From assembly GCA_903877125.1 (NCBI GenBank), contig CAIRCM010000079.1:1-64000 (forward strand): DNA of 64,000 nucleotides, read 5' to 3'. Position numbers and translations under genes: made by a program. How positions within the stretch are numbered: position 1 is the stretch's first letter; each line of letters starts with the position of its first letter. Below are positions 38,467 to 40,625 of the stretch, piece after piece. The DNA is from an uncultured Acetobacteraceae bacterium (lineage in GTDB: Bacteria; Pseudomonadota; Alphaproteobacteria; Acetobacterales; Acetobacteraceae). The notes below the pieces were generated by a model. It was not told where the DNA came from. It did not search any database and saw only the letters and a program-made list of their open reading frames with translations.

Positions 38467-39117
38467 TTATTGGCTGACCCAGACGATGCGATGCAGCCAG
38501 GCAACTTCGTTCAGGTCGAACGAGAAGTCCGGATGCAGTGGATTCAGGCTTTTCAGTTCCACCCGGCGGGCCGACTTGCGGACGAGTTGCTTGGCCATCA
38601 CCTCCCCGGCATGGGTGCGCGCGACGACACGATCGCCACGCCGGATCGGCGCATTGGGTGAAACGATGATCATATCGCCGTCGCGATACACCGGCTCCAT
38701 CGAAGAGCCGGTGATTTCCAAAGCATAGGCGTTCTGATCGCCGATATCCGGCAGGCTGACTTCATCCCACGAACCGCCGACCGGGAAGCCGCCGTCGTCG
38801 AAATACCCCTCCCCGCCAGCCTGCGCCATGCCGATCAGCGGAATGCGCTTGGATACCGCGCGGCTGTTGCCCCCGCTGCTGAGCGCCCTGGCACCGGACA
38901 CCAGCGAAGTGAAATCCTCCATCGACGCACCGGTGGCATTCAACACCTTGGCGATGCTTTCCGTGCTGGGCCAGCGCGCCCGCCCGTCCGGCATCCGGCG
39001 TTTGGAGACGTTGAACGTCGTCGAATCCAACCCCGAGCGCTTGGCGAGCCCAGAGGCCGACATGCCGTATTCGGCCGCGAGCGTGTCGAGCGCGCGCCAA
39101 ACGTCTTCGTGTTTCAT
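38467..39117 (-). CDS. HTH plus S24 (LexA/CI-like) repressor peptidase
   Basis: N-terminal HTH SASGLAKRSGLDSTTFNVSKRR; S24 motif ITGSSMEPVYRDGDMIIV. Confidence 0.9.
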   Translation of the reverse strand: MKHEDVWRALDTLAAEYGMSASGLAKRSGLDSTTFNVSKRRMPDGRARWPSTESIAKVLNATGASMEDFTSLVSGARALSSGGNSRAVSKRIPLIGMAQAGGEGYFDDGGFPVGGSWDEVSLPDIGDQNAYALEITGSSMEPVYRDGDMIIVSPNAPIRRGDRVVARTHAGEVMAKQLVRKSARRVELKSLNPLHPDFSFDLNEVAWLHRIVWVSQ

Positions 39118-39285
39118 CGATTCGGTCCCATCGGTCGAGTCTGCGGACGCATTATGATAGGAATGGGCGCCAATTGAAATGGGAAATTTTCTTCGCACCG
39201 CTTTCTTCTCTTGCCATCGTATGCAACCCAGGGTTTAATATTCTCCGTCTATTCTCGGATGAATTGGTCGACCCAGGAGACGCCA

Positions 39286-39687
39286 ATGGTACAAACCGCC
39301 CACCGCCCACCACTCGCGCCCCGCGGCACGCCTGCTCGGCCGGTCAGGATCGAGATCACCGACCGGGTTCAACCGTTCCGCAACGCCGAAGAGGCCTGGA
39401 TCTGGACGATGTCCGCCCTTGTCGCCCGGCGCGATGGCGCCCGCTACACCGCCAACAAGGGCAGGATCGGACGCCCTTGCGACCCCGACGACATCGTCAG
39501 AAGCCTCGATGCACTCTACCGCCAACGCCGGATCGACCTGCTGCATGCCCGTATTCTCCGCATTTGGGGCGAACGCGGCGCCGCGCCCGACCCCACGCGC
39601 AAGCTCGAGCACGCTGATTGGAAGTTGTGGAAGGAAGCATTGGAGCGCCTGGAATGGCCTTTGCGGGTGAAGGGGATTGTCGCCTGA
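39286..39687 (+). CDS. Hypothetical protein divergent from the S24 repressor
   Basis: MVQTAHRPPLAPRGTPARPVRIEITDRVQPFRN...; upstream CCCAGGAGACGCC SD. Confidence 0.65.
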   Translation: MVQTAHRPPLAPRGTPARPVRIEITDRVQPFRNAEEAWIWTMSALVARRDGARYTANKGRIGRPCDPDDIVRSLDALYRQRRIDLLHARILRIWGERGAAPDPTRKLEHADWKLWKEALERLEWPLRVKGIVA

Positions 39688-39732
39688 TTTTGCCTTATTG
39701 ACGAAAATAATCCGATAAAAGGAAAAATATCG

Positions 39733-39762
39733 TTGACAAGCCTCCAACCCCACCGCTAGAAA
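39733..39762 (+). promoter_or_regulatory. Sigma70-like promoter TTGACA-N18-TAGAAA bracketed by CGTTGACAA/TTGTCAACG
   Basis: Perfect -35, near -10; perfect 9-bp inverted repeat at 39731-39739 and 39767-39775. Confidence 0.5.
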
Positions 39763-39767
39763 GCCTT

Positions 39768-39860
39768 TGTCAACGGCCGAACCACGCCCATCGGCCTGCC
39801 AACCGAAACGTTACCCACCACCCACTAAGGACCGTACCCGCAAGGGACGGTCCTTTTTTT
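39768..39860 (+). ncRNA. Candidate ~90-nt small RNA or attenuated leader
   Basis: Follows a promoter-like sequence, no credible ORF, ends at a strong intrinsic terminator. Confidence 0.4.
39827..39860 (+). terminator. Intrinsic terminator, 12-bp stem, GCAA tetraloop, seven Ts
   Basis: AAGGACCGT-A-CCC-GCAA-GGG-ACGGTCCTTTTTTT. Confidence 0.92.
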
Positions 39861-39879
39861 GTCCGAAAGGGACGATCCC

Positions 39880-40116
39880 ATGGCCTTCTCCGTCCGCCAC
39901 CTGTCCGTGCTCGCCTACGCCAACGGCTTTACCCTCTGGCACTACAAAGCACTGAAGGACACGTTGGATGTCGTAACCGGCAACAATTTCTTCGGCGACG
40001 GCGCCGACATGCTGACCGCCGGCGATCTGATCATGGTCACCGCCAACGGCGGCGCCCGCATCGTCTCCGTCACGGTCGCCGATATCGAGACGGTCGTTGT
40101 CGCGCCGCTCAACTGA
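39880..40116 (+). CDS. Phage-like hypothetical protein
   Basis: MAFSVRHLSVLAYANGFTLWHYKALKDTLDVVTGNNFFGDGADMLTAGDLIMV; SD-like AAAGGGA; resembles small phage virion-associated proteins by pattern only. Confidence 0.6.
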   Translation: MAFSVRHLSVLAYANGFTLWHYKALKDTLDVVTGNNFFGDGADMLTAGDLIMVTANGGARIVSVTVADIETVVVAPLN

Positions 40117-40325: not shown

Positions 40326-40625
40326 ATGAACGAGGACAGCGAGGTCGCCAGTTGGAACGAAAGCCGCCGGTTGATCATCAGCCAGCTGCGCGACATGGAC
40401 GCTTCGATCCGGGAGCTCAGCGCCCGGATCGACAAATACAACGACTCGGCACGGGAAAGGGCATCGGAGGTGTCAAAGGAAGCACAGGCCGGCATCATCG
40501 AGTTGAATCTCCGCGTGGCGATGCTCGAGATGCGGGCAAAGATGTGGGGGGCCTTCGTCGGCCTCGTCGGCGGTTCCGCCGGCACCCTGCTGATCGAATT
40601 GGTTCGGCGGGCCCTGCTGCGGTAG
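40326..40625 (+). CDS. Hypothetical coiled-coil protein with one C-terminal TM (phage lysis-accessory-like)
   Basis: MNEDSEVASWNESRRLIISQLRDMDASIRELSARIDKYND...MWGAFVGLVGGSAGTLLIELVRRALLR. Confidence 0.6.
   Translation: MNEDSEVASWNESRRLIISQLRDMDASIRELSARIDKYNDSARERASEVSKEAQAGIIELNLRVAMLEMRAKMWGAFVGLVGGSAGTLLIELVRRALLR

Follow-up and report, generated by a model that had tools for sequence, protein, structure and literature searches.

In the Alp system of Pseudomonas aeruginosa, the autocleaving repressor AlpR controls the antiterminator AlpA, which carries transcription past the alpB terminator tB, and a second operon is served too (PMC7969949). In the lambdoid pR'/tR'/Q arrangement, a regulator gene, a late promoter, a short leader RNA, a terminator and a virion operon follow each other (PMC6606751). 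In the alphaproteobacterium Caulobacter, phage-derived particle genes of the gene transfer agent (GafYZ) lie behind a terminator, and the loci are dispersed (PMC11150451). HK022 put RNA blocks termination via the zinc-binding domain of RNA polymerase, and two separate operons that are followed by terminators carry related RNA structures close to their 5' ends (PMC9378689).

Here, we analysed a stretch of 64,000 nucleotides (the window) from an Acetobacteraceae genome of a Rhodopila-like genus, in which a promoter, a short leader RNA and a terminator are arranged in a comparable way between two small genes, up133 and dn78. The features of the locus are the following.

38467–39117, minus strand: S24-type self-cleaving repressor gene, 216 aa, helix-turn-helix (HTH) and Peptidase_S24 (Pfam PF00717, 6e-24; PHROG 4, 2.7e-29)
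39158–39163, no strand assigned: TAGGAA half-site ahead of the S24 repressor gene, probably autoregulatory
39286–39687, plus strand: up133, conserved helical protein of 133 aa, no named family (AlphaFold pLDDT 81)
39719–39734, no strand assigned: AAGGA-N6-TCGTT, candidate operator of the S24 repressor, which overlaps the -35 box (alignment A3, columns 12-24 conserved)
39731–39775, no strand assigned: 9-bp inverted repeat, arms CGTTGACAA (39731-39739) and TTGTCAACG (39767-39775), judged coincidental
39733–39738, plus strand: -35 box TTGACA (in nearly all of 50 loci, TTGAC lies 30-32 nt ahead of the hairpin)
39757–39762, plus strand: -10 box TAGAAA (TA nearly invariant, 1.74 bits each)
39769–39860, plus strand: leader RNA of ~92 nt, 5' end deduced from the -10 box (R1 match G000:C79:39766-39859, E 7.7e-10)
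39769–39795, plus strand: conserved 5' hairpin of the RNA, 7/10 consensus pairs holding in the window
39827–39860, plus strand: intrinsic terminator, 12 bp with one bulge, GCAA loop and U-tract, common to nearly all leader-type dn78 loci
39866–39872, plus strand: Shine-Dalgarno sequence AAAGGGA of dn78, 7 nt before the ATG at 39880
39880–40116, plus strand: dn78, phage-like protein of 78 aa (PHROG 18004), read-through of the terminator needed

The S24 repressor gene (minus strand), up133 (plus), the promoter–leader–terminator block and dn78 (plus) keep this order among related loci, and genes, promoter, short RNA and terminator occupy the same positions in 23/23 good genomes of the genus; the loci compared are related, so that such counts are not independent. 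Promoter, RNA and terminator also recur at fixed spacing across the genus. A consensus scan had missed both the promoter of the window, whose -10 box lacks the final T, and the terminator, whose stem is bulged, and conservation is therefore used as the argument for both. On this comparative ground, the promoter, the ~92-nt transcript and the terminator proposed by the initial annotation are confirmed as real, conserved elements of the sequence.

The promoter lies at the annotated coordinates, with a spacer of 18 bp in the window, and recurs in relatives at a constant distance from the hairpin. In the 50 aligned loci, a distance of 30-32 nt separates TTGAC from the conserved block GUCAACGGGCGANNUGCGYCC, and the transcript should therefore start at or just before this block; the 5' end of the leader RNA would fall at the start of GUCAACGG. 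The annotated non-coding transcript of ~90 nt is thus closely matched by the ~92 nt found here, and R1, a covariance model of the leader RNA searched over the genus genomes, hits the dn78 locus in 23/23 good genomes. R1 matches below ~36 bits outside two settings (L158, L162, L164-L167) look like unrelated terminators and were discarded.

The 5' hairpin has 75% of its cells paired across 42 dn78-type loci, with 26 double changes as compared to 11.4 in shuffles, and the wider locus set gives similar values (72%; 26 versus 12.4). When the hairpin partners were slid, pairing fell to 33-42% in the dn78-type loci and to 32-42% over both sets. Compensatory changes support the stem, which is conserved beyond pairing, and covariation of this kind in the aligned loci shows selection on the RNA. 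An alternative antiterminator fold within the leader was also considered and set aside, the hairpins being independent in the minimum-energy fold.

For the terminator, RNAfold returned the 12 pairs, GCAA loop and seven Us described earlier, though with one bulged A (39836). The stem-loop spans 39827-39855 and the T-run 39854-39860, the two opening Us of the seven-U run being engaged in the last two of the 12 pairs. Its folding energy is -20.7 kcal/mol (z = -5.1), and 0/200 shuffles are as stable. The U-run ends at 39860, in keeping with the annotated distance of ~20 nt to the ATG at 39880; since the Shine-Dalgarno sequence lies within these 20 nt, there is no space for a second promoter, and expression of dn78 from this side needs read-through. 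At one related locus (L005, 1338-1520), four tandem, nearly identical terminators stand between the leader and dn78. Under a strict terminator call, which depends on the criteria chosen, terminators were found behind 9/10 dn78, 8/14 virion and 14/22 DUF6065 leaders versus 16/150 random stretches, and behind just 1/9 leaders of dn78-like tail genes. Given the last value and that for DUF6065, not every member of the regulon is gated.

The repressor belongs to the LexA/CI-like type: besides the Peptidase_S24 domain, its sequence contains the LexA-type serine (GSSMEP) and lysine (MAKQL) and an Ala-Gly site (AQAGGEG). PHROG 4 is a transcriptional repressor family, and the HTH match is weak (0.021, below the cut-off). 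Nearly all related loci have the S24 gene at the corresponding position. Over the -35 box, the TAGGAAAAATATCG columns reach 1.04 bits per base, as compared to 0.36 for the sequence upstream and 0.17 for the spacer, and palindromes are clear in outlier loci (L009, TAGGAAAACATTCCTTGAC; L084, TAGGAAAGAATTCCTTGAC; also L079). Half-sites TAGGAA/TTCCTA are present in 62/69 regions upstream of S24 genes, where 4.6 are expected. A TAGGA-N6-TCnTT element overlapping the -35 box is thus the more likely operator, rather than the 9-bp repeat, and the repressor would bind it there. Repressor control, which the initial annotation had attached to that repeat, is probable for the S24 protein by way of the half-sites at both promoters, and only the choice of operator has to be given up. 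LexA boxes occur in 35/69 S24 upstream regions; upstream of the S24 gene of the window, no LexA box was found.

We consider that the locus is probably the leader of an operon that derives from a phage and is under repressor control, in which the terminator gates the downstream gene. The S24 repressor, sitting on TAGGA-N6-TCnTT over the -35 box, would hold the promoter off, and its cleavage would let the promoter fire. The default product would be an RNA of ~92 nt, comprising the 5' hairpin, a tail and the intrinsic terminator and ending ~20 nt before dn78, so that dn78 would be made solely from transcripts that pass the terminator. The block would be of the phage late-promoter leader type, in which a leader terminator is overcome by antitermination. 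Of the two roles suggested initially, that of a conditional terminator for the phage-like gene is favoured because the same leader precedes phage virion operons; repressor binding, the efficiency of termination and conditional read-through are what we infer from this arrangement. Counted against it are many Acidocella loci, in which dn78 is leaderless. In Acidocella and relatives (L086-L120), dn78 comes right behind a promoter with a LexA box (GTTC-N7-GTTC) and TAGGAATATAAGCCT, without leader and terminator.

By analogy, the order of the module is very close to that of the Alp system. In both cases, the gene of an autocleaving LexA-like repressor stands beside a small regulator gene and a second, unlinked operon is under the same control, and the Alp terminator starts 54 nt after the start site (PMC7969949), as compared to ~58 here. 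However, AlpA is an antiterminator, whereas up133 is only a candidate for one, and AlpA binds DNA between -35 and -10, a region unconserved here, the shared conserved element being an RNA hairpin. The order of elements in the lambdoid system is also the same, but the present locus has no confirmed Q homologue and no conserved Q element in the spacer, and its leader hairpin is conserved. The combination of a promoter, a short leader and a terminator before a virion operon, as in pR'/tR', is seen in relatives and viral contigs, while in the window it precedes dn78 only. The Caulobacter gene transfer agent differs in having the GafZ element in the -35/-10 spacer, the terminator behind the first gene and a particle of the RcGTA type, in contrast to the podovirus-like genes here.

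The product of up133 has no match in Pfam, PHROG or NCBIfam. The PF06530 (Q) profile matched none of 20 up133 members and is absent from 142 genomes of the class. When the PDB was searched by fold, structures of phage-21 Q ranked first, at values that are not significant (E=2.2-7.6), and hhalign of up133 against the Q21 family gave 18.4, against a shuffled maximum of 18.9, which is marginal. up133 and phage-21-type Q antiterminators have in common an RP-C-x-DD stretch and the order of helices, a similarity that is not significant either. A Q-like antiterminator function of up133 is, from these models, a weak possibility.

The gene downstream, dn78, is present in 31/33 genomes of the genus, including 23/23 good ones, and its fold resembles uncharacterised Caudovirales proteins, while its direct phage relatives amount to a single unannotated 5-kb record. 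Further downstream, the window encodes a protein of 99 aa (40326-40625) that has a hydrophobic stretch at its C-terminus and is kept downstream of dn78 in L005, L043 and L075. The locus is also present, with dn78 identity of 65-70%, in assemblies labelled Asaia bogorensis and Nitrosovibrio (L061, L063, L067), whose labels may be wrong.

The main rival to a gated leader is a free sRNA: the terminated RNA would itself be the product, a trans-acting member of a two-copy family that pairs with mRNAs via its hairpin or a C/U-rich stretch, and expression of dn78 would be incidental. We regard this option as unlikely but keep it, since the genome has another copy elsewhere, unlinked and provided with a promoter and terminator of its own. 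The ar8 / MmgR / SisA-D sRNAs (Rfam RF00519 suhB; PMC12559287) are comparable in that many relatives have a weak 5' hairpin, a UCCUCCC stretch and a terminator; an unpaired CCUCC/CUCCC stretch follows the hairpin in 24/42 relatives and resembles the UUUCCUCCCU core of ar8 sRNAs, the likeness of relatives to these sRNAs lying in the 3' half. However, the CCUCC/CUCCC stretch and a single-stranded UUUCCUCCCU core are both absent from the RNA of the window, and the 5' hairpin is a different one. No match in the window reaches an Rfam gathering threshold; the best relative, L020, scores 35 bits against the suhB/MmgR cut-off of 41, and true suhB copies exist elsewhere in these genomes. The suhB, mir and ncS025 matches in relatives are weak and were set aside. 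Genes for suhB (MmgR) have multiplied in the genus (G006, G008, G024), a single genome giving as many as 13 matches. Against a free sRNA, it also counts that the hairpin is conserved even in leaders without a detected terminator, and that both copies lie, in the fashion of leaders, upstream of phage-like or conserved genes.

Within the gated-leader reading, a sub-case assigns antitermination to the RNA itself, the 5' hairpin being a put-like or nut-like cis element that makes RNA polymerase resistant to the terminator. The DNA that Q, AlpA and GafZ recognise lies in the -35/-10 spacer, which showed no conserved element of this kind here and carries 0.17 bits per base in the alignment; a put-like role of the hairpin therefore comes into consideration as well. 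HK022 putL and putR provide a precedent (PMC9378689), and the hairpin starts at about +1, is common to several unlinked operons and is conserved beyond what pairing demands. On the other hand, put is ~70 nt long with two stems, as compared to one 5' hairpin of putative activity here, and the terminator would seldom act if the hairpin always disarmed it; we hold this sub-case to be improbable.

A decayed or insulating remnant, in which the promoter is active, the terminator does no more than stop transcription and dn78 sees little use, seems very unlikely. The virion capsid gene is missing from the genus, the hairpin of the window has three of its ten consensus pairs broken and the C/U motif is lost, all of which would fit decay. 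Yet dn78 is intact in nearly every genome of the genus with a conserved sequence, its Shine-Dalgarno sequence is kept, and the covariation indicates selection on the RNA.

That the 9-bp inverted repeat is the S24 operator can hardly be upheld: the repeat annotated around the promoter is indeed perfect, and its GTTGAC/GTCAAC arms recur in many relatives, but both are conserved for other reasons, the left arm being the -35 box and the right arm TTGTCAACG the 5' strand of the conserved RNA hairpin, while the arms do not covary (13 double-changed cells versus a shuffled mean of 11.8), the repeat is not conserved as a repeat, and the window has no more perfect 9-bp repeats with loops of 15-45 bp than chance would give (24, versus 7-30 with a mean of ~19 in ten shuffles).

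Returning to the gated leader, its wider distribution was followed with R2, a covariance model of operator, promoter and hairpin. R2 finds about two copies of the module per genome in the genus and at least one copy in 54/104 good Acetobacteraceae genomes, often two. The module has four settings: before dn78, before a gene encoding MGGLF...PKP, in the gap between a YeiH-like and a DUF6065 gene, and before distant relatives of dn78 beside tail-spike genes. The second copy in the genome of the window (L154, G000:C116:3168-3324) is a promoter–hairpin–terminator of the YeiH-like/DUF6065 setting. The MGGLF gene opens an operon whose PHROG functions include a head-tail adaptor, a major head protein, two tail proteins, a terminase and an endolysin. 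In related Acetobacteraceae, the S24 gene, up133, promoter, hairpin and terminator stand as the same block ahead of this podovirus-like virion operon. When viral contigs were searched for exact copies of the 5' motif, 27 were found, and a podovirus-like portal–capsid–tail–terminase operon, in some cases cut short, lies behind the motif in 26/27. In one viral contig (L247), the virion cluster has the 5' motif at either end (624 and 11972).

The capsid gene was found in 26/120 genomes of the family. The module is present in 24/26 genomes with the capsid gene versus 37/94 without it (Fisher p ~1e-6), mostly 2-3.3 kb upstream of the gene. In the genus of the window, the capsid query found the gene in 0/33 genomes, while the same query finds it in 26 other genomes of the family. 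We read this as Rhodopila having retained the switch before dn78 and the DUF6065 gene after loss of the virion genes. The podovirus-like virion cluster spans ~12 kb (L236, L237, L238, L241; viral contigs L244-L270), and its capsid gene is mostly single copy and 68-100% identical. A gene transfer agent is a particle that packages host DNA and cannot propagate itself. Judging from mostly single-copy capsid genes of such identity within one family, the cluster is possibly an undescribed gene transfer agent.

A broader scenario, which we put forward tentatively and with considerable doubt, is a podovirus-derived particle system throughout the family, perhaps one more kind of gene transfer agent in alphaproteobacteria. 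Its control would lie with a self-cleaving repressor together with antitermination directed by the conserved 5' hairpin, which its dispersed operons share; up133 would represent a new family of antiterminators, or the hairpin would act alone, and in Rhodopila the switch would serve domesticated genes. One intergenic guess has become a conserved regulatory module with a named set of proteins and testable sites. If the reading is right, it would open the way to an undescribed podovirus-like particle cluster that Acetobacteraceae have kept by vertical descent, supply a candidate antiterminator in up133 or a candidate put-like RNA, and provide a case in which a phage leader switch outlives the phage genes.
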